From assembly GCA_012842565.1 (NCBI GenBank), contig DUSO01000137.1:1-32191 (forward strand): a stretch of 32,191 nt of DNA. Direction: 5' to 3'. Of the stretch, positions 379-16,123 are shown in pieces. Source of the DNA: Bacillota bacterium. Its GTDB lineage: Bacteria; Bacillota; SHA-98; Ch115. Within the stretch, counting starts at the first letter, position 1; each line of letters starts with the position of its first letter. The position numbers and the translations under genes were made by a program. The notes under the pieces were generated by a model. The model worked only from the letters and a program-made list of their open reading frames with translations. It searched no databases and was not told the DNA's origin.

Positions 379-801
379 ATGCGTATTGCCGTAATTGATG
401 GACAGGGGGGAGGTATCGGGAAGAGCATAATCGAGAGGCTCAGGAAAGACCTTACTCAAGAGGAGTTGAGTCGCGTTGAGATCATCGCCCTCGGGACTAA
501 CGCTCTGGCTACGGGAGCGATGCTGAAAGCCGGAGCTGACGAGGGGGCCACGGGCGAGAACGCAGTGGTCCGTACGGTAGAAACCGTCGATGTGATCCTG
601 GGCCCGATTGGTGTTGTACTGGCGAATTCGATGTTGGGCGAGCTCACTCCCAGGATGGCTGAAGCCATTGCTTCCAGCAAGGCCAGGAAGCTTCTTATTC
701 CCATGAACCGGTGTCGCGTAGACATCGTCGGTGTAGAGCCGCAGCCCCTGCCTCATCAGATTGAGGCGTTGGTACAGCAGGTGCGAGAGATGTTGCGTTA
801 A
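379..801 (+). CDS. DUF3842 family protein
   Basis: This is a 140-residue protein of unknown function that matches my memory of the DUF3842 family found in anaerobic Firmicutes. It opens MRIAVIDGQGGGIGK, a beta-strand followed by a glycine-rich loop resembling a nucleotide or dinucleotide binding turn. A second segment (VDVILGPIGVVLANSMLGE, about residues 70-90) and the late stretch KLLIPMNRCRVDIVGVEP complete the family pattern. I chose the ATG at 379 because the family motif starts there and AAGGGAG lies 9 bases upstream; an upstream ATG at 340 would add 13 unrelated residues. The gene sits between ahcY and an ECF transporter S gene. No signal peptide or membrane segment is seen, so it is probably cytosolic. 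The biochemical role is unknown. Confidence 0.8.
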   Translation: MRIAVIDGQGGGIGKSIIERLRKDLTQEELSRVEIIALGTNALATGAMLKAGADEGATGENAVVRTVETVDVILGPIGVVLANSMLGELTPRMAEAIASSKARKLLIPMNRCRVDIVGVEPQPLPHQIEALVQQVREMLR

Positions 802-5650: not shown

Positions 5651-6364
5651 TCACACAGCAAGAGCGGGAGAGATTCCCCTTATTTCGACTCTCTCAAAAA
5701 AGGGCTCGAGTTTGCGGGCGACGTCTTTAAGCCAGGTCCCGCTGTAGGGATGTCTCCTGGAGAATGCATCGTCAAGTGTCGGACCCGGCGCATACTGTTG
5801 GAGCACGTACTTCTTGGCGCCTGCCAGCCACCGGCCTATTCGGATTAGGTCTTCCTCCGCGATGAGCCCCGGGGCGACCGTCGTCCTGAATTCATAGTCT
5901 ATATGGCTTTCTTTTATGAGCCGGATTGACGCCTCAATATTGGTGAGGCTTACGCGGGAACGCGTAACCTCCTCATAGCGGTCGCCCGGCGCCTTTATGT
6001 CCATTGCGATGTAGTCGACAGTGCTTTTCTCTATCAACTCATCGAGGACCGCTGGATTGGTGCCATTGGTATCCAGTTTGATCCTAAGGCCCAGGGCCCT
6101 CGCGCGATCTATGAACGGCATGAGATCCGTTTGCAGGGTCGGCTCACCCCCGGTGATGCAAATCCCGTCCAGGAGGCCCCTTCTTTTCTCCAAGAAGGTC
6201 AATACTGCTTCTTCCGGGATCGCTGGGAGGCTCTCAGTCTCCAGAACCAAATCCCTATTGTGGCAGTACGGGCACCTCATATTGCAGCCGCCTACGAATA
6301 TGGTGGCCGAGATATATCCCGGGAAGTCTACCAGGCTTGTTTTCTGGATGCCCCTTACTACCGT
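5651..6364 (-). CDS. nrdG: Anaerobic ribonucleotide reductase activating enzyme, start uncertain
   Basis: This radical-SAM enzyme uses a [4Fe-4S] cluster and S-adenosylmethionine to create the glycyl radical on NrdD. The frame reads RGIQKTSLVDFPG, then GGCNMRCPYCHN, the CxxxCxxC cluster motif, then GGEPTLQ and a conserved LDTNGTNP strand. The first in-frame ATG (6280) lies inside the cluster motif and would drop its first cysteine, so translation must start upstream. Upstream to the stop at 6407-6409 there is no in-frame ATG, GTG or TTG. An ACG at 6362-6364, 9 bases after AGGGAG, is the best-placed candidate. An ATT or frameshifting out of nrdD is also possible. It overlaps the nrdD stop by a few bases, so translation is probably coupled. 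Confidence 0.88.
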   Translation of the reverse strand, partial: TVVRGIQKTSLVDFPGYISATIFVGGCNMRCPYCHNRDLVLETESLPAIPEEAVLTFLEKRRGLLDGICITGGEPTLQTDLMPFIDRARALGLRIKLDTNGTNPAVLDELIEKSTVDYIAMDIKAPGDRYEEVTRSRVSLTNIEASIRLIKESHIDYEFRTTVAPGLIAEEDLIRIGRWLAGAKKYVLQQYAPGPTLDDAFSRRHPYSGTWLKDVARKLEPFFERVEIRGISPALAV

Positions 6365-8460
6365 ATCGACCCGCTCCCTATGGCATATTCCTTTCGATCT
6401 GCAAATTCACTCCGCTTGCCCTTGTTCCAGTTCTGAACCGGCCTGTAGAAGCCTACTACTCTGCTCCATACTTCAGCTTCTCGTCCACATGTCGGACAGG
6501 TGGGGTGTTCACCCGCTATGTAGCCGTGCTCCGGACAGATACTGAATGTTGGCGTTATGGTGAAATACGGCACCCTATAGGTGGACATCACCCTGTAGAG
6601 CAACTTCTTCACCACGCTCACGTCATCAATTCGTTCCCCGACGAAGCCGTGGAAGACCGTGCCGCCCGTGTACCTTACCTGCAGCGCCTCCTGGAGATCT
6701 AGGGCCTCAAAGATGTCATGGGTGAAATCCACTGGGAGCTGCGTGGAATTCGTATAGTAGGGTTCCTCTTTGCCGGCAGTAATAATATCGGGGTAGGCCT
6801 GCCGGTCCAACCTGGCGAGCCTGTACGCCGTTCCTTCTGCGGGCGTGGCCTCGAGGTTGAACATCTGTCCTGTTTCCTCCTGGTACTCTACCAGGACCTC
6901 CCGCATGAAGTCCAGGACTTCTATGGCAAATCTGTGACCTTCCGGCGTGGTGATGTCCCGTCCCATGAAGTTGAGAAGCGACTCATTCATCCCGACCAGG
7001 CCTATGGTGTTGAAATGATTGTGCCAGTATGTGCCGAAGCGCTTTTTTACGGAATCCAGGTAATGACGAGAGTATGGATAGAGTCCTGCCTCCGTCATCC
7101 GTTCAAGAACTTCCCTCTTGATGAGCAGGCTTTGCTTTGCGAGGTCCATGAGATTCCTTACCTGGCTCAGGAAATCCTCCTCTGATCGAGATAGATAGCC
7201 AATTCGCGGCATATTCAATGTCACTACACCGATCGATCCCGTAAGGGGATTTGCCCCGAAAAGTCCACCTCCGCGCCTACGTAGTTCACGGTTGTCAATG
7301 CGGAGGCGGCAGCACATGCTGCGCACGTCTTCCGGCGACAGGTCCGAGTTGATGAAATTAGCGAAATACGGGATGCCGTATTTCGCTGTCATTTCCATGA
7401 CTTTCGTAATCACCGGGCTATCCCAATCGAATTCCGGCGAGACGTTATAGGTTGGGATAGGAAAGCTGAATATCCTCCCCCTGGCATCCCCCTCCATCAT
7501 CACTTCGCAAAAGGCCGTATTGAGCATATCCATCTCGTTTTGAAAGTCCCTGTATTGGGCATCTTGCACTTTGCCACCAATGATGACGGGCTCTTCCGCC
7601 AGTATGTTGGGGACCACGACATCCATCGTGATGTTGACGAAAGGAGTTTGAAAGCCTACGCGAGTCGGCACATTGAGATTGAAGATGAATTCTTGAATTG
7701 CCTGCTTGACTTCCTTATAGCTTAGGCCGTCAAAGGCAATGAAAGGCGCGAGATAGGTGTCGAAGTTGGCAAAGGCCTGGGCACCGGCTGCTTCGCCCTG
7801 GAGGGTATAAAAGAAATTGACCACCTGTCCCAGGGCTGTGCGGAAATGCTTTGCAGGAGCGCTTTCGATCTTCTGCGCCACTCCGCCGAACCCTTGTAAC
7901 AGGAGGTCCGCGATGTTCCATCCGCAACAATAGGGCGCAAGCAGGCTTAAGTCGTGGATGTGGATGCTTCCGCTCTTGTGGGCCTCGCGCACTTCCTCGG
8001 GGTAGACCTTCTCCAACCAGTACCTTGACGTAAGGGCCGATATGAGGTGATTATTCAGCCCTTGCAACGAATAATTCATGTTGCTGTTTTCATTTACCTG
8101 CCAGTCCCGGCCGCCCACATAATCCTCGATCATCCTCTCGGCATTGACGAGGAGGTTGTGGAATTCTCGTAGTTCTTGGTGCTGTTTACGGTAAAGGATA
8201 TATGCCTTGGCCGTCTTGGCCTGCCCGTGCTCGATCAGCACCCTCTCGACGATGTCCTGCACGTCCTCGACCGCAGGTATCCTGTCTTCAAACTCCCGGA
8301 GAAGAACATCAACCACCTTGTTGGAAAGCTCACAGGCCAGACGTCGATCTTCGCAGCCGACCGCCTTGCCTGCCTTGAAAATGGCGTTGATTATCCTCTC
8401 CTGGTCAAAATCTACCACTCTCCCGTCTCTCTTGATTATCTTTTTGAGCACCGTCATCAT
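6358..8460 (-). CDS. nrdD: Anaerobic (class III) ribonucleoside-triphosphate reductase
   Basis: This is the glycyl-radical enzyme that reduces ribonucleotides to deoxyribonucleotides without oxygen; about 700 residues. Residues about 5-95 form an ATP-cone allosteric domain (KKIIKRDGRVVDFDQERI ... EHGQAKTAKAYILYRKQH). The barrel core follows, including HIHDLSLLAPYCCGWN and NFDTYLAPF. Near the end, a four-cysteine zinc site (CPEHGY...CPTCG) precedes RVVGFYRP, whose glycine should carry the radical. I place the start at the MMTVLKK methionines just after AAGGAG; the second ATG (8457) or the GTG at 8451 gives better spacing. An ATG at 8613 lies within the riboswitch and is rejected. NrdG follows directly. 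Confidence 0.95.
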   Translation of the reverse strand: MMTVLKKIIKRDGRVVDFDQERIINAIFKAGKAVGCEDRRLACELSNKVVDVLLREFEDRIPAVEDVQDIVERVLIEHGQAKTAKAYILYRKQHQELREFHNLLVNAERMIEDYVGGRDWQVNENSNMNYSLQGLNNHLISALTSRYWLEKVYPEEVREAHKSGSIHIHDLSLLAPYCCGWNIADLLLQGFGGVAQKIESAPAKHFRTALGQVVNFFYTLQGEAAGAQAFANFDTYLAPFIAFDGLSYKEVKQAIQEFIFNLNVPTRVGFQTPFVNITMDVVVPNILAEEPVIIGGKVQDAQYRDFQNEMDMLNTAFCEVMMEGDARGRIFSFPIPTYNVSPEFDWDSPVITKVMEMTAKYGIPYFANFINSDLSPEDVRSMCCRLRIDNRELRRRGGGLFGANPLTGSIGVVTLNMPRIGYLSRSEEDFLSQVRNLMDLAKQSLLIKREVLERMTEAGLYPYSRHYLDSVKKRFGTYWHNHFNTIGLVGMNESLLNFMGRDITTPEGHRFAIEVLDFMREVLVEYQEETGQMFNLEATPAEGTAYRLARLDRQAYPDIITAGKEEPYYTNSTQLPVDFTHDIFEALDLQEALQVRYTGGTVFHGFVGERIDDVSVVKKLLYRVMSTYRVPYFTITPTFSICPEHGYIAGEHPTCPTCGREAEVWSRVVGFYRPVQNWNKGKRSEFADRKEYAIGSGSIR

Positions 8461-8497
8461 CTCCTTGCCTCGTCTCGCGAAGGCCTTGGAATTCAGC

Positions 8498-8654
8498 GGA
8501 TAGGCAGGTCTCCTGGCTCCCGGATCATAGCTCCCTTCCCGCCTTCCCCGGCAGGGTGGCACCCTGGGAAGCTGCTCCCCGGTTACAGTGGCGCGTCCGC
8601 CCAGGCCTTGCACCTGGTTCCCTATTCTCCCCCATTAGAGGGGGGCACCTATCC
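8498..8654 (-). promoter_or_regulatory. Cobalamin (B12) riboswitch
   Basis: Read on the minus strand, the RNA begins GGATAGG (8654-8648), which pairs perfectly with CCTATCC (8504-8498) as closing stem P1. Inside are the cobalamin-riboswitch landmarks in order: GGAACCAGGTGCAAGGCCTG, GCGCCACTGTAACCGGGGAGC (core B12 box), GGGAAGG and GAGCCAGGAGACCTGCC. The 3' end is 38 bases before the nrdD start codon. No T-tailed terminator lies between, so control probably works by hiding the AAGGAG site. Adenosylcobalamin binding is expected to shut off nrdDG. Confidence 0.95.
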
Positions 8655-8714
8655 AGCATCTATGTTGATTCTTCTTTTTTCCTAACCGATGGGGTTATAC
8701 CAAGAGTATATTCG

Positions 8715-9665
8715 TCAGGCGGGAGCAAACTCCTTCAGAATGTGCTCCAATTTTTCCCATATTGCCTTCATGGCTTCTACTGCTGGACCTTCTCCATAGT
8801 CAATCACGGGAATACCATTTATCAGTGCCCGGACTACGTCCTCGTCAAAAGGTATCCTCCCCAAGACTTCTATCCCTTCACCACGGCAATAGTCCTCGAT
8901 TTCCATCGACTTCCGTTGGTCAAGGTCATGCTTATTTATGCATACAGCAGCCCTTACGCCAAAGTGTTGCGCCAACTCTAATGCCCTTGTGAGGTCGTGT
9001 AGTCCCGAAATGGTCGGTTCTGTGACGACAAGGGCCAGGTCTATCCCTGACATTGAAGATATGACAGGACAACCTATCCCCGGTGGGCCGTCGATGATTA
9101 TGTAGTCCAGCCCGTGTTCCTCAGCGATAGCCTTGGATGCCTCTCTGACTTCAGCGACAAGTTTGCCGGAATTTTCTTCGGCGATTCCAAGCCTGGCATG
9201 AACCAGGGGGCCATAGGGGGTGTCAGAGACAAACCAATGGCCTGAGAGGTGGTCCTCCATCTCTATTGCGCCATGTGGGCAAGCGTGATAACATACGGCG
9301 CATCCCTCACAGTAGATTGGGTTGATCGTGTATGAGGGGCTGGCCGAGTTATCATTCGGACCGTAGTAGATGTCGCCGTGGTTGCCCTTAGGCTCATCAG
9401 GCCCGGTGACGGCGTGAAAACGGCAGACTTGCTCGCACCTGCCACAGCCGGCGCACCTCCCTTGATCTATTACAGCCTTTCTGGAGCCACAGAATTCATG
9501 GGCTTCACGAGCTACAGGCTTCAGGAGAAGGTGAAGGTCGGCGGCATCTACATCGCAGTCCGCCAATACCTTGTTTTTGGCCAAGGTTGCGAAAGCCCCT
9601 ACGATGGATGTCTTGCCTGTGCCACCCTTGCCGCTAATGACCAGCAGTTCTCTTGGTTCTTTCAT
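8715..9665 (-). CDS. MinD/ParA-type ATPase with inserted double [4Fe-4S] ferredoxin domain (1)
   Basis: This 316-residue P-loop ATPase of the MinD/Mrp branch has a deviant Walker A motif (SGKGGTGKTS, residues 11-20). A bacterial ferredoxin module is inserted after the first half of the ATPase fold. Cysteines 71, 74, 77 and 81 (CAGCGRCEQVC) and 119, 122, 125 and 129 (CEGCAVCYHAC) should bind two [4Fe-4S] clusters. The fold resumes with YIIIDGPPGIGCPVIS (switch II) and a TEPTISGLHD segment. The ATG follows GAGGAG by about 9 bases, and the start lies within the 3' end of the paralogous ATPase gene, so the two are translationally coupled. The family is common in anaerobes beside NifX/Mrp genes and is thought to act in metallocluster handling, but no reaction is established. 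Confidence 0.9.
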   Translation of the reverse strand: MKEPRELLVISGKGGTGKTSIVGAFATLAKNKVLADCDVDAADLHLLLKPVAREAHEFCGSRKAVIDQGRCAGCGRCEQVCRFHAVTGPDEPKGNHGDIYYGPNDNSASPSYTINPIYCEGCAVCYHACPHGAIEMEDHLSGHWFVSDTPYGPLVHARLGIAEENSGKLVAEVREASKAIAEEHGLDYIIIDGPPGIGCPVISSMSGIDLALVVTEPTISGLHDLTRALELAQHFGVRAAVCINKHDLDQRKSMEIEDYCRGEGIEVLGRIPFDEDVVRALINGIPVIDYGEGPAVEAMKAIWEKLEHILKEFAPA

Positions 9666-10521
9666 TTTCTAAAGTCTCCTCGATCTTTTGCCAGAGCTCC
9701 TTAAAAGCGCGTTTGAGCTCAGCGAATTCCTCCACGAGACGGCCCCCTCGAGCATAGCAGGCGGCGTACCTCCGATCAAAGGGGATCTCCAGCAGGATAG
9801 GTATCCCTTCCTGCTGGCAATACGATTTGATGGAGACAAGATCACCGAGTCCCGAACGATTGATGACCACTCCGAATGGTACGCCGAGCTGTCTTACCAT
9901 GCCTACTGCCAGGATAAGGTCATTCAGGCCGAAGGGCGTCGGCTCGGTAACCAGCAGGCAGAAATCTACGCCTGCCACCGAATTTACCACAGGGCAGGAG
10001 GTGCCTGGTGGTGCATCGATGATGGTGACCCAGCCTTTGACGTCTCCCATGGTCTTTCGCCTTACGGCCCTGATTACCGGTGGGGCGAGGGCGGAGCCGA
10101 CACTGAGCCTTCCCTGGACAAAACCAATCCTTCCGGCTTTCCCGCTTTCTATGACGCCTATCTCAACTGGCTTTTCCGAGATAGCGCCTGTTGGACAGAA
10201 TAGGCTGCATCCTCCACATCCGTGGCAGAGCTCCGGGAAGGTAATCGCCTGATTGCCTGTCATAATTATGGAATGAAAGGCACAGACCTTCGCACACCTT
10301 CCACACCCATTGCAACGGGAACTGTCGATATCCGGCACAGGCATCGTTACGCCTTCGGCCATATCAAGGGTGGGGCGAAGGAAGAGATGGCAATCAGGTT
10401 CTTCGACGTCGCAATCCAGGACCTGCACGTGGAGTGTCGCTTCGAGGGTGAGGGCCAGGTTAACGGCGATAGTGGTTTTGCCTGTGCCTCCCTTTCCACT
10501 GGCTACTGCGAGGATCATCAT
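9634..10521 (-). CDS. MinD/ParA-type ATPase with inserted double [4Fe-4S] ferredoxin domain (2)
   Basis: This is a 295-residue paralogue of the downstream ATPase with the same layout. Walker A is SGKGGTGKTT (residues 8-17 from the chosen start), and ferredoxin cysteines are at 70, 73, 76, 80 (CNGCGRCAKVC) and 99, 102, 105, 109 (CHGCGGCSLFC). Switch II is IIDAPPGTSCPVV, followed by TEPTPFGLNDL. I chose the tandem ATG at 10521/10518 because the ATPase fold begins directly there; an in-frame ATG at 10572 would add an unrelated Pro/Gly-rich tail overlapping the upstream gene. The pair probably works as a heterodimer, an inference from their adjacency and 32-base overlap. Confidence 0.9.
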   Translation of the reverse strand: MMILAVASGKGGTGKTTIAVNLALTLEATLHVQVLDCDVEEPDCHLFLRPTLDMAEGVTMPVPDIDSSRCNGCGRCAKVCAFHSIIMTGNQAITFPELCHGCGGCSLFCPTGAISEKPVEIGVIESGKAGRIGFVQGRLSVGSALAPPVIRAVRRKTMGDVKGWVTIIDAPPGTSCPVVNSVAGVDFCLLVTEPTPFGLNDLILAVGMVRQLGVPFGVVINRSGLGDLVSIKSYCQQEGIPILLEIPFDRRYAACYARGGRLVEEFAELKRAFKELWQKIEETLENERTKRTAGH

Positions 10522-10535
10522 ATCACCGCGATTTA

Positions 10536-10931
10536 TTACTGGGCCCGGCGATCCTGGTTGTGCCAGCTGCATAAATGGCGACCCCTGTCGTGGTGGCTCC
10601 CATCATGGTCGCAGAGGCTTTCGCCGGCCTGGAGGTTTCCTGCCAGATACGCCTTGACAACCTCATCTACATATCCTGAGACGCCTACCACCGTCTCAAG
10701 GCCCTTTTCACGGAAAAGCCCTTGTGCCCTTGGGCCCATGCCACCCGCTATGATGCAAGAGATTCCCAGCTGGGCAAGATAACCCGGCAAAAATCCCGGC
10801 TCATGCCCGGGGTTAGGGATGACAATCGAGTTTTGCACCCTGCCGTTATCTACGGTCACTATGGTATATTCGGGGCAGCGCCCGAAGTGCCCGGCAACCA
10901 TATTCCCGTCTGTTGCTACGGCAATTTTCAC
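10536..10931 (-). CDS. NifX/NifB-C type FeMo-cofactor-binding-like protein (2)
   Basis: This is a 131-residue protein of the dinitrogenase iron-molybdenum cofactor biosynthesis (NifX, NafY, NifB C-terminal) fold. It shows KIAVATDG, the VAGHFGRCPEYTI motif (His/Cys region that binds cluster precursors in nitrogenase relatives) and LGISCIIAGGMGPRAQGLF, a strand-loop typical of the family. The tail is rich in His, Cys and Asp (CDHDGSHHDRGRHLCSWH), a likely extra metal-binding segment. I prefer the GTG at 10931, which follows GGAG by 9 bases and restores the usual MKIAVATDG opening; a TTG at 10940 is also possible. No nif structural gene is visible, so a role in nitrogenase is not implied. Confidence 0.88.
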   Translation of the reverse strand: MKIAVATDGNMVAGHFGRCPEYTIVTVDNGRVQNSIVIPNPGHEPGFLPGYLAQLGISCIIAGGMGPRAQGLFREKGLETVVGVSGYVDEVVKAYLAGNLQAGESLCDHDGSHHDRGRHLCSWHNQDRRAQ

Positions 10932-10936
10932 AGACT

Positions 10937-11317
10937 TCAACTCCTGTTCATTCCAGAGTGAGAGCTTACCGTCGCTATGGAGAGCGCTACAAGTTCGCCC
11001 TTTTTGTAGCTTTCCAGTGCTTCACGTACGGTCCCGGAACCTGCCGCATATACTTTTATTCCTGCCATCCGGAGCGCGCGCATTGCATTTGGGCCAACAT
11101 TTCCTGTAATTACAGCCTCGACATGCTTGTCAGCCAGGAATTGTGCGCTCTCTGGCCCTGCGCCTCCCGAGGCCGTGGCGGCCTGGTTGACTAAAGATTC
11201 GAAATGCCCACCTTCCGGATCGCCGATTATGAAGTACCTACACCGTCCGAAACGGGGATCCAAAGGTGAATCGAAATCGGGTCCTTGTGCCGTAATGGCC
11301 ACTTTCACATGCCCCAC
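10937..11317 (-). CDS. NifX/NifB-C type FeMo-cofactor-binding-like protein (1)
   Basis: This is a 126-residue relative of the next gene. Features are VKVAITAQGPDFDSPLDPRFGRCRYFII (the conserved DPRFGRC loop), NQAATASGGAG, and VEAVITGNVGPNAMRAL followed by GIKVYAAG. These place it in the NifX-like fold that carries Fe-S or FeMo-type clusters in nitrogenase-bearing organisms; here the client is unknown. The ATG follows GGGGAGG. Five bases separate its stop from the preferred start of the second NifX-like gene, so the two are one operon. A strong hairpin and tandem repeats lie upstream and may insulate it from the DUF5320 gene. Confidence 0.88.
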   Translation of the reverse strand: MGHVKVAITAQGPDFDSPLDPRFGRCRYFIIGDPEGGHFESLVNQAATASGGAGPESAQFLADKHVEAVITGNVGPNAMRALRMAGIKVYAAGSGTVREALESYKKGELVALSIATVSSHSGMNRS

Positions 11318-11338
11318 CTCCCCAGGTCCATTCTTTCC

Positions 11339-11428
11339 TTCCGAAGCTTGGCGAGGTTCTGATGCTCAGCAAAAGTCCGACGCCCAGCGAAATTCTGATG
11401 CCCAATGAGATCCCGATGCCCGGCGAGC
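11339..11428. repeat. Five imperfect 18-bp tandem repeats
   Basis: Five consecutive 18-base units start at 11339, 11357, 11375, 11393 and 11411, with approximate consensus TTCYGATGCCCAGCGARA on the plus strand. Every unit keeps the GA and GC core. The array lies between the DUF5320 gene's hairpin and the first NifX-like gene, hence in the 5' leader of the latter. Eighteen bases is a whole number of codons; one plus frame reads SDAQxx repeats, but I see no real gene there. Confidence 0.7.
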
Positions 11429-11469
11429 AAAAAGGGGATAGATGGAGGCGGACACGGCACGCCTCCATC
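11429..11469 (-). terminator. Hairpin terminator after DUF5320 gene
   Basis: On the minus strand a perfect 9-base stem, GATGGAGGC pairing with GCCTCCATC (11469-11461 with 11449-11441), has an 11-base loop and is followed by TATCCCCTTTTT. It lies about 30 bases after the DUF5320 stop. The T-run starts seven bases after the stem, so termination may be partial, allowing read-through into the NifX/MinD genes. Confidence 0.55.
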
Positions 11470-11500
11470 TAATCCCATAGTGCATTGGGCGGAGTTTGCT

Positions 11501-11944
11501 TTACTTACTGCCTTCGGCTTTGTCCTTTTCAGAACTTCCGAGATCCTTCAGGCGTTCCTCAATCTCTTTGAGTTCTTCCCTAAGGTACTCGGCCTGTTGC
11601 TTGAGGAATGCCATTTCCTGTTCGGAGGTTGGCTGGGCTACCTGCCCTGCGTATGACGCTCCGGGAAAGGGAGCCCCGTAGTAGGCGGGATAGCCAGGTG
11701 TAGCCCAACCAGGGTAACCAACCCAACCAGGGTAACGAAAGCGGGCCCAGCCTGGCAGGCCGGTTGCGTAATACATCCACCTCCAACCCCGGCCCCGGCC
11801 CAATCCCAGACCGCGGCCGAATCCAAACCAGCGGCCTCCAATGGGGTTCATAAACCCGGGGACTGGATAACCTGCGCAGTACCCCGCCGCCCTTCCTGTC
11901 ATGGGACCAAGTCCCATCGGTCCAGTACCGTCACCTCGTGGCAT
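11501..11944 (-). CDS. DUF5320 family Gly/aromatic-rich protein
   Basis: This 147-residue protein starts with MPRGDGTGPMGLGPMTGRAAGYC, the signature of DUF5320 proteins found beside Mrp/NifX genes in anaerobes. The middle (about residues 25-105) is low-complexity and rich in Gly, Trp, Tyr, Phe and Pro (repeated YPGWVGYPGW-like units). The end (about 107-140) is a coiled coil (EQEMAFLKQQAEYLREELKEIEERLKDL). Function is unknown; a scaffold or oligomerising partner is a guess from composition. The start lies 3 bases after the mrp stop and AAGGAGGG sits at the end of mrp, so translation is closely coupled. Confidence 0.85.
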   Translation of the reverse strand: MPRGDGTGPMGLGPMTGRAAGYCAGYPVPGFMNPIGGRWFGFGRGLGLGRGRGWRWMYYATGLPGWARFRYPGWVGYPGWATPGYPAYYGAPFPGASYAGQVAQPTSEQEMAFLKQQAEYLREELKEIEERLKDLGSSEKDKAEGSK

Positions 11945-11947
11945 GTC

Positions 11948-12757
11948 TTAACCCTCCTTTGCCACTCGTGTTGATGCCAGGTTAGCGATATCTACCTGGT
12001 TAATGATGTCCTTCACCAATGGACTGCTGTAAGTCTCGATCTGGCCTTTGTCACATAATTCTGCAAGTCTAGCATCGATGGGTAAAGTCCCTAGAAACGG
12101 TATCTCCATAGCCCGGGCTACTTCTTCCCCCTTGCTCGGGCCAAATATCCTGAGTATCTCACCGCACCTGGGGCATACCGCGTAGCTCATATTCTCAATG
12201 AGTCCAAGTACAGGTGTCTTCATTATTGAGGCCATCTTGATGGCCTTTTTTACCACCATAGTCGCCAGCTCCTGAGGCGAAGATACGATTATCAAGCCAT
12301 CCAAAGGCAGAGACTGCATCACGGTGAGTGGTGCGTCCCCTGTGCCCGGCGGGAGGTCTACCAGCAGGTAGTCAAGGTCGCCCCAAACGACGTCCGTCCA
12401 GAACTGTTTGACTGCCCCCGCAATAAGAGGGCCACGCCAGACGACAGGGTCATCCTCGTGCGCAAGGAGGAGGTTCAGCGACATCACTTCTATCCCGAGC
12501 TGAGTCTTTGCGGGGAGGATTCCAAATTCAAAGTTCTCGGCATGTGAATGGATGCCAAATATCTTGGGTATGCTTGGACCGGTTATGTCGGCATCAAGGA
12601 CGCCGACCTTGTACCCCTTTTTTGCAAAGGCTACGGCCAAAAGGGCTGTCACCGAGGATTTGCCGACCCCGCCCTTGCCGCTCATTACCGCCATGACATG
12701 TGCGATTTTGCTCAATTCGTTCTGTTTTTCCTTGGGCAACTCACTTTGTCTTTCCAT
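11948..12757 (-). CDS. mrp: Mrp/NBP35-type Fe-S cluster carrier ATPase
   Basis: This is a 269-residue Mrp/ApbC-family P-loop ATPase that holds and transfers [4Fe-4S] clusters as a dimer in the cytosol. It shows Walker A SGKGGVGKSS (residues 26-35), DADITGPSIPKIFG (51-68), VVWRGP and DYLLVDLPPGTGD (129-141). The dimer-interface CPRC cysteines (195 and 198) after ENMSY bind the cluster. The extra N-terminal DUF59 domain found in some Mrp proteins is absent, as is usual in anaerobes. It is the first gene of the Mrp-DUF5320-NifX-NifX-MinD-MinD set and follows a strong promoter with a roughly 115-base leader. Confidence 0.92.
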   Translation of the reverse strand: MERQSELPKEKQNELSKIAHVMAVMSGKGGVGKSSVTALLAVAFAKKGYKVGVLDADITGPSIPKIFGIHSHAENFEFGILPAKTQLGIEVMSLNLLLAHEDDPVVWRGPLIAGAVKQFWTDVVWGDLDYLLVDLPPGTGDAPLTVMQSLPLDGLIIVSSPQELATMVVKKAIKMASIMKTPVLGLIENMSYAVCPRCGEILRIFGPSKGEEVARAMEIPFLGTLPIDARLAELCDKGQIETYSSPLVKDIINQVDIANLASTRVAKEG

Positions 12758-14434: not shown

Positions 14435-15073
14435 TTACACGAGCAGCCGCCTGGCCAGTTCAACAGCAGAAGCGGCGTCCGGCGCATAACCGTCAGCCCC
14501 TATCTTGTCGCAGTAGGCCTGGGTAACCGGCGCGCCGCCTATCATGACCTTGACTCGGTGCCTCAGGCCTGCCGCGATCAGGGCGTTGATCGTGTCCTTC
14601 ATCGCCGGCATGGTCGTGGTAAGAAGGGCCGACATCCCGATATGAGTCGGGTTGAACTCCTCTACCGCCTTGACGAATTGCTGGGGAGAGATGTTGGTGC
14701 CGAGGTCGATGACCTGAAAGCCTCCGCCTTCCAGCATCATTCCCACGAGCTTTTTCCCTATATCGTGTACATCCCCGCGGACCGTTCCCAGGACGACCTT
14801 GCCCAGAGGCCTTGTATTGCTTATCGCGAGCAATGGGCGCAGGATGTCCATGGCGGCGTGCATGGCACGAGCAGCCATGATCACCTCCGGGAGATAGATC
14901 TCGTTGTTCTTGAATTTCTCTCCGACTACCGCCATCCCCGCGATAAGCCCTTTGTCAAGTATCTCAGTCGCCGGGATTCCTATCTCCAGGGCATTCCTGG
15001 TCGTCTCTGCTGCAGAAGCCTGGTCCCCGCGAAGCAGGCAAGATGCAAGATTTTCAAGGATTTCTGCGTTCAT
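14435..15073 (-). CDS. Corrinoid (B12-binding) methyltransferase carrier protein
   Basis: This is a 212-residue corrinoid protein of the MtbC/MtmC/MetH-cap type. Residues 1-85 form the helical cap (B12-binding-2) domain, and residues 90-212 the Rossmann-like B12-binding domain. The cobalt-coordinating motif is DVHDIG (D101, H103, G106) in GTVRGDVHDIGKKL, followed by the usual IDLGTNISPQQF, SALLTTTMP and IGGAPVT strands. Such proteins carry a methyl group on cobalt between two methyltransferases, often from methylamines, methanol or methoxy compounds. No substrate-specific partner (MtmB, MtbB, MttB) is nearby. An AcsE-like methyltransferase gene diverges from it across a 258-base spacer and is the likely partner. 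A weak promoter (TTGTAT-17-TATTAA) lies upstream. Confidence 0.92.
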   Translation of the reverse strand: MNAEILENLASCLLRGDQASAAETTRNALEIGIPATEILDKGLIAGMAVVGEKFKNNEIYLPEVIMAARAMHAAMDILRPLLAISNTRPLGKVVLGTVRGDVHDIGKKLVGMMLEGGGFQVIDLGTNISPQQFVKAVEEFNPTHIGMSALLTTTMPAMKDTINALIAAGLRHRVKVMIGGAPVTQAYCDKIGADGYAPDAASAVELARRLLV

Positions 15074-15265
15074 AAGGCTCGGCCACCAACTTTCCTTCGC
15101 TCTCCTGCTCGACGCACCGATTCCCTCCTAAACCTTAATATCACAAGAGACGGCTAAATACAAGACGGTGCGGCAGACAGCAATCCGCCAACAGCCACCG
15201 GGGGGTCCGGCTGATAACAAGAATGTAGGAGAATGCCAGCCCGTCCAAATGCCGGCCGGTCCGTC

Positions 15266-15294
15266 TTCCCAAGATGCGGGCTGTGTGCTATACT
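15266..15294 (+). promoter_or_regulatory. Candidate promoter of the methyltransferase gene
   Basis: TTCCCA and TATACT are spaced by 17 bases, about 38 bases before the ATG at 15332. The -10 matches 5 of 6 and the -35 matches 4 of 6. Confidence 0.4.
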
Positions 15295-15331
15295 TCGCAC
15301 ATAAGACGGATGATGGCGGGGGGATCGGAGT

Positions 15332-16123
15332 ATGCTAATCATCGGCGAGAAGATCAACTCGACCCGCAGGCCTGTCCAGGCGGCGGTTGCCAGGAGGGAT
15401 GAGGCATTCATCCATGATCTCGCCAAGAGACAGGTGCAAGCCGGGGCCGGGATGCTTGATGTGAATTGCGGCACTCTCGAGGATGAGGAGCCCGAGGCGC
15501 TGGCCTGGGCGGTCAGGATAGCGCAGGACGCAGGCGGCGTCCCTATTTCCATCGACACGCCAAACGCCTGTGCAATGGAGGCTGCGTTGAAGGTCCATCG
15601 CGGCAAGCCCCTTATCAATTCCATTACCGCCCAGCGCGAGCGCCTGGAAGGGATGTTGCCCATCATCAAGGGTTATAGCTGCTCTGTGATAGCCCTGTGC
15701 ATGAATGACGACGGCGTCCCGGAGCTGGCCGAGGGCAGGGTGGAGGTGGCGCGCTACCTGGTGGAAGCCCTGGCCGGGGTAGGGGTTTCACCTCCAGATA
15801 TCTATCTTGACCCCCTGGTCGAGCCAGTCAGTGTGGCGCCCGGCGGCGTACGGGTCGTGCTGGATACTATTGAGCGGCTGCGCGAGCTTTTCCCCGAGTG
15901 CCATATAATCTGTGGGGTGAGCAATGTATCATTCGGGTTGCCCCGGCGGTCCCTCCTCAACAGGTCTTTTCTCGGAATGTGTATGGCCTTCGGGGCTGAT
16001 GCGGTGATCGTTGATCCCGAGGATCGTGATCTAATGGCTACTCTGAGGGCGTCTGATACCCTGCTGGGGAGAGATGAATTTTGCGCGCAGTATATGGCGG
16101 CCTTCCACGAAGGACTCTTATAG
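15332..16123 (+). CDS. AcsE-like methyltetrahydrofolate:corrinoid methyltransferase
   Basis: This 263-residue TIM-barrel enzyme of the pterin-binding (MeTr/AcsE, MtvA) family moves a methyl group between methyltetrahydrofolate and a corrinoid protein. It shows LIIGEKINSTRRPVQ (strand 1, pterin contact), GAGMLDVNCGT, PISIDTPNACAMEAAL, INSITAQ and CGVSNVSFGLPRRSLLN, all in family order and covering the whole length. The chosen ATG follows a G-rich AGGAG-like site. It is divergent from the corrinoid gene, which suggests a pair for methyl-group entry or exit. The other Wood-Ljungdahl genes are not in the window, so a full acetyl-CoA pathway is not implied. Confidence 0.92.
   Translation: MLIIGEKINSTRRPVQAAVARRDEAFIHDLAKRQVQAGAGMLDVNCGTLEDEEPEALAWAVRIAQDAGGVPISIDTPNACAMEAALKVHRGKPLINSITAQRERLEGMLPIIKGYSCSVIALCMNDDGVPELAEGRVEVARYLVEALAGVGVSPPDIYLDPLVEPVSVAPGGVRVVLDTIERLRELFPECHIICGVSNVSFGLPRRSLLNRSFLGMCMAFGADAVIVDPEDRDLMATLRASDTLLGRDEFCAQYMAAFHEGLL

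Follow-up and report, generated by a model that had tools for sequence, protein, structure and literature searches.

The stretch of DNA analysed here (the window) comprises 32,191 nucleotides of a Bacillota bacterium genome and carries a cobalamin riboswitch, directly followed by nrdD and then nrdG, all on the minus strand. A cmscan search of the window against Rfam placed RF00174 (Cobalamin) at 8667–8486 on the minus strand, with a score of 120.4 bits and an E value of 6.2e-30 (gathering score, 31.5 bits). The match spans the full length of the model (positions 1–189 of 189), and was the sole Rfam match at gathering threshold in the window. The P1 stem, read directly from the sequence, consists of seven perfect pairs between GGAUAGG (8654–8648) and CCUAUCC (8504–8498); its ends define the span 8498–8654 given in an earlier note on this DNA, which had described a complete riboswitch with a perfect 7-base P1 stem before nrdD and had proposed the covariance-model check. 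Both the complete aptamer and the stem were confirmed. As a B12-dependent isozyme of NrdD is encoded in the genome (see below), the nrdD leader was counted as that of a B12-linked gene, and the aptamer lies within this 5' leader on the same strand.

The open reading frame downstream of the riboswitch (6358–8451, minus strand) was identified by profile search as nrdD, encoding the class III anaerobic glycyl-radical ribonucleoside-triphosphate reductase (NF006126, 1096.3 bits, cut-off 548; TIGR02487, 592.1 bits, cut-off 326.35). It is adjoined, in the same direction, by nrdG (5651–6340, minus strand), encoding the activating radical-SAM enzyme of the NrdG2 type (TIGR02495, 211.7 bits, cut-off 131.15). 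A mechanical listing of open reading frames opens the nrdD frame at GTG 8613, inside the aptamer. Since the NrdD proteins of relatives begin with Met-Leu-Lys-Lys-Ile, GTG 8451 is the likelier start, and it is located nine bases past the Shine-Dalgarno sequence AAGGAG (8466–8461). In-frame ATG codons at 8460 and 8457 are possible alternatives, but are 0 and 3 bases from AAGGAG. The gap of 38 bases to nrdD given in the earlier note is counted to ATG 8460 and ends short of the likelier start. Across 6280–6360 (minus strand), the nrdG frame has no in-frame ATG, GTG or TTG before 6280, upstream of the CNMRCPYC motif, and continues without a stop into the 3' end of nrdD; translation of nrdG may begin at a rare codon, or the sequence may contain an error.

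Upstream of the riboswitch, the minus-strand region 8718–12757 encodes two Nitro_FeMo-Co domain proteins and a cluster of MinD/Mrp-like ATPases, of which two contain ferredoxin-type regions. We considered whether the aptamer might be a relic, or whether nrdDG might be mainly the tail of this upstream gene run, with little effect of B12. In line with such a reading, all annotated genes between 12757 and 5651 share the minus strand, the end of the upstream gene (8715) is 47 bases from the aptamer, and a search for promoter-like sites between this gene and the leader found none. However, decay would be expected of a relic, and the full-length aptamer match scores 120.4 bits in the window, with 120.3 bits in the nearest relative (G001), despite the NrdD proteins of the two genomes being only 91% identical, which counts against a relic. 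An aptamer within a longer transcript can, moreover, still act on translation. We therefore regard a relic or a passive tail as very improbable.

Next, we examined the ribonucleotide reductases encoded elsewhere in the genome of the window (2.55 Mb, 199 contigs, 97.81% complete). A profile search of the contigs with PF02867 gave four matches in two genes. The first gene, on contig C44, encodes a protein of 1018 residues matching NF006417, "vitamin B12-dependent ribonucleotide reductase" (1177.3 bits, cut-off 961), and TIGR02504, NrdJ_Z (739.6 bits, cut-off 399.95). The earlier note had predicted such a class II NrdJ from the riboswitch and suggested a search for nrdJ, which yielded this gene and the 3' part of a second on contig C124. 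The N-terminal half of the latter was not found in the genome search. As both genes were matched best by a class II model, a class I reductase was rejected, the class I large subunit not being found in the PF02867 search of the contigs. Judged by these profile matches, the genome encodes reductases of classes II and III, the C44 NrdJ being a B12-dependent alternative to NrdD. No Rfam match was present in the scanned stretch containing C44 nrdJ and approximately 1.2 kb before it (L003), so that this B12-dependent isozyme has no riboswitch there.

Within the C44 NrdJ, residues 430–452 gave an intein C-terminal splicing match, and an intein of approximately 160 residues lies between the ESTNPC and NCGEQP motifs (L003:199–3252); NrdJ matches split within one frame were also seen in three other genomes (G001, G002, and G027). 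In the second nrdJ (C124; L004/L121:1–240), homology breaks off sharply close to base 225, the sequence before this point being unrelated, and the contig has no Rfam match; the break may reflect an insertion, misassembly or contamination. An FMN riboswitch is located upstream of the nrdJ region in G001 (contig C8; L127:5231–5384). The membrane protein encoded just before nrdJ in the window's genome (L003:3485–4075) shows a resemblance to a riboflavin-type transporter component.

The corrinoid supply of the host was examined in the same genome. A single further cobalamin riboswitch was found (contig C92, 74.1 bits), preceding a gene for a substrate-binding protein that scores 130 bits with the BtuF model (cut-off 234) and is described here as BtuF-like. 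Profile searches of the genome gave no match for CbiL or CobS. The single tetrapyrrole-methylase match in the genome falls in a 330-residue open reading frame, which from its sequence we take to be RsmI, an rRNA methylase. B12-binding domains scored over cut-off at four places in the genome, one of them in the window (14438–15073). There, a minus-strand gene for a corrinoid-binding protein (PF02607 and PF02310) neighbours a plus-strand gene for a pterin-binding enzyme (PF00809), the two spanning 14438–16120. The genome thus appears to be that of a corrinoid user that lacks corrin-ring synthesis, gaps in the draft being a caveat, and for this reason the nrdD riboswitch probably reads imported corrinoid.

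To examine the prevalence of the arrangement, riboswitch and nrdD coordinates were compared by hand across 61 genomes, of which 49 had an nrdD match. RF00174 preceded nrdD in seven of the 61 (the window's genome G000, and G001, G007, G028, G029, G037, and G047), a count for which G029 and G037 were rechecked and from which filters can lose weak matches. All seven carry a class II enzyme over the curated cut-off. In G029, which has no NrdJ_Z match over cut-off, the reductase is a class II enzyme of another type (TIGR02505, RTPR, 394.5 bits, cut-off 340.05), and this genome was accordingly rejected as a counter-example. NrdJ_Z scored over cut-off in six of the seven riboswitch-nrdD genomes versus 33 of the 42 other nrdD genomes, a comparison in which the latter figure covers NrdJ_Z and not RTPR. 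There was no signal of association between an nrdD riboswitch and NrdJ, and since NrdJ_Z is so frequent in the other nrdD genomes, the co-occurrence of class II enzymes is agreement, not proof. CbiL scored over cut-off in one of the seven riboswitch-nrdD genomes versus 14 of the 42 others, which is the direction expected for an association with B12 auxotrophy, with numbers far too small to claim one. In G037 (contig C1; L124), a gene for a class I large subunit (NF006665) lies downstream of nrdD on the same strand, and both B12-independent reductase classes may be under one switch in this genome.

A search of nrdD loci in genome_contigs (the best 80 of 590) revealed a cobalamin-clan riboswitch before nrdD in 13 of the 80, at least four loci with less than 300 bases of upstream sequence (L053, L064, L086, and L116) being scored as misses. 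Eleven of the 13 matched RF00174, one matched RF01689 (L069), and one was a borderline match to RF01482 (L103). These loci are labelled as coming from Moorella, Tepidanaerobacteraceae, Bittarella, Bacteroidales, Ancylomarina, Puteibacter, Elusimicrobia, Acidobacteria, Berkelbacteria, and others. In Bacterium BMS3Bbin09, two divergent cobalamin riboswitches are present upstream of nrdD (L068:159–359, minus strand, and 522–665, plus strand).

The leader between aptamer and nrdD bears on how the riboswitch would exert control. Neither a terminator-like nor a sigma-70-like site was found in 8400–9000, in keeping with the earlier note, which had reported no T-run between riboswitch and start. Partition-function folding of the whole window leader predicted an expression platform (8461–8491, minus strand) in which UCC of UUCC (8491–8488) pairs with GGA of AAGGAG (8466–8461), enclosing an inner hairpin; the pairing probabilities of the GGA bases were 0.94, 0.95, and 0.89. 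The same hairpin was predicted for the leader of G001, with GGA pairing probabilities of 0.91, 0.91, and 0.86. However, 22% of 500 dinucleotide shuffles of the window leader and 28% of 500 of the G001 leader folded as strongly, so that a hairpin strength above chance was rejected and the predicted fold is suggestive only. No competing ligand-free structure for the leader was identified.

The same riboswitch and physiological logic could instead operate through transcriptional control (Rho-dependent termination or RNA decay, for instance), without hiding of the ribosome-binding site. Besides the chance-level strength of the sequestering hairpin, the neighbouring genomes speak for this alternative: all five riboswitch-bearing relatives in the phylum outside the window's family (G007, G028, G029, G037, and G047) have a terminator-like hairpin in the leader, and transcriptional control is thus the commoner mode nearby before nrdD. 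Terminator-like hairpins were also found in six of the 13 riboswitch-bearing named nrdD loci from genome_contigs, the match in L071 being weak (present in 23% of 30 shuffles). In contrast, the interval from aptamer to start contains no terminator-like site in the window, nor in G001, which has a similarly short leader, and only 25 bases on the minus strand separate the end of the Rfam match from the first in-frame nrdD ATG. Given the missing terminator and a Shine-Dalgarno sequence predicted to be paired in both genomes, we consider transcriptional control of the window leader unlikely and translational control the likely mode. As far as can be told from these leaders, the window's family (the window and G001) and its terminator-bearing neighbours differ in output stage.

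Collectively, these observations suggest the following model. The genome encodes two reductases, of which NrdJ (class II) needs adenosylcobalamin and NrdD with NrdG (class III) does not. Imported corrinoid bound in the aptamer would favour the hairpin that holds the nrdD Shine-Dalgarno sequence, translation of nrdD would fall, and ribonucleotide reduction would be left to NrdJ; under corrinoid shortage, NrdJ would be without its cofactor, the leader would open, and NrdDG would be made. From the behaviour of this riboswitch family we infer that nrdD is regulated by cobalamin, that is, that the aptamer binds its ligand and that B12 acts on nrdD in this direction; control is placed at translation by the predicted leader structure. 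With high confidence, we propose that a cis-acting cobalamin riboswitch lowers expression of the nrdDG operon in the presence of corrinoid. A more specific proposal, which we put forward tentatively and rate slightly below even, is that the output stage in the window's family is a compact leader that hides the ribosome-binding site, as opposed to a terminator in relatives outside it, that the host is a corrinoid auxotroph, and that its supply of DNA precursors is set directly by scavenged corrinoid. The locus would extend to a further lineage the known principle that cells choose their reductase by vitamin supply. Because its only reductases are of classes II and III and it is apparently auxotrophic for corrinoid, the host would depend on corrinoid from its neighbours for its DNA precursors, which makes it a well-defined natural system in which to test the switch.

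Several related systems have been described. Passages of a 2004 study (PMC545781) report B12 elements preceding NrdDG in Desulfovibrio vulgaris and Desulfuromonas, with NrdJ present in all delta-proteobacteria studied there, and propose that B12 turns off the B12-independent enzyme, a pattern described earlier still. The window resembles these cases in the kind of element, the target operon, the presence of NrdJ elsewhere and the proposed logic; unlike them, as they are presented in those passages, its host belongs to a different phylum and seems unable to make corrin. In Propionibacterium acnes, the annotation given in part of PMC3848588 places cobalamin riboswitches before nrdDG and nrdAB and not before nrdRJ, and the authors propose that B12 moves reductase production to NrdJ. 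The riboswitch at nrdDG and its absence before nrdRJ, as annotated there, are matched here by the nrdD leader and the scanned stretch at C44 nrdJ, whereas P. acnes differs from the window's genome in having a class I nrdAB under a riboswitch and RNA-seq evidence of early termination. A cobalamin riboswitch also precedes nrdD in Candidatus Chlorobium antarcticum, according to a section of PMC8620254, where translational control is said to be usual in Chlorobi; this organism differs from the window's host in phylum and in having such sites also before btuB, btuF, and metE. A passage of PMC3766115 lists "isozymes of B12-dependent enzymes" among the standard components of cobalamin regulons. The closest named relatives among the matches listed, the nrdD loci of Moorella (L041 and L042; NrdD 70–71% identical), likewise have RF00174 in front, with a 12-pair terminator-like hairpin that the window leader lacks. 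What appears new here is the apparent lack of corrin-ring synthesis in the host. The arrangement itself has been known in other bacteria for about twenty years, and since the Desulfovibrio, Desulfuromonas, P. acnes, and Chlorobium cases are already in print, the earlier note's account is a correct reading of known regulation in a new genome.
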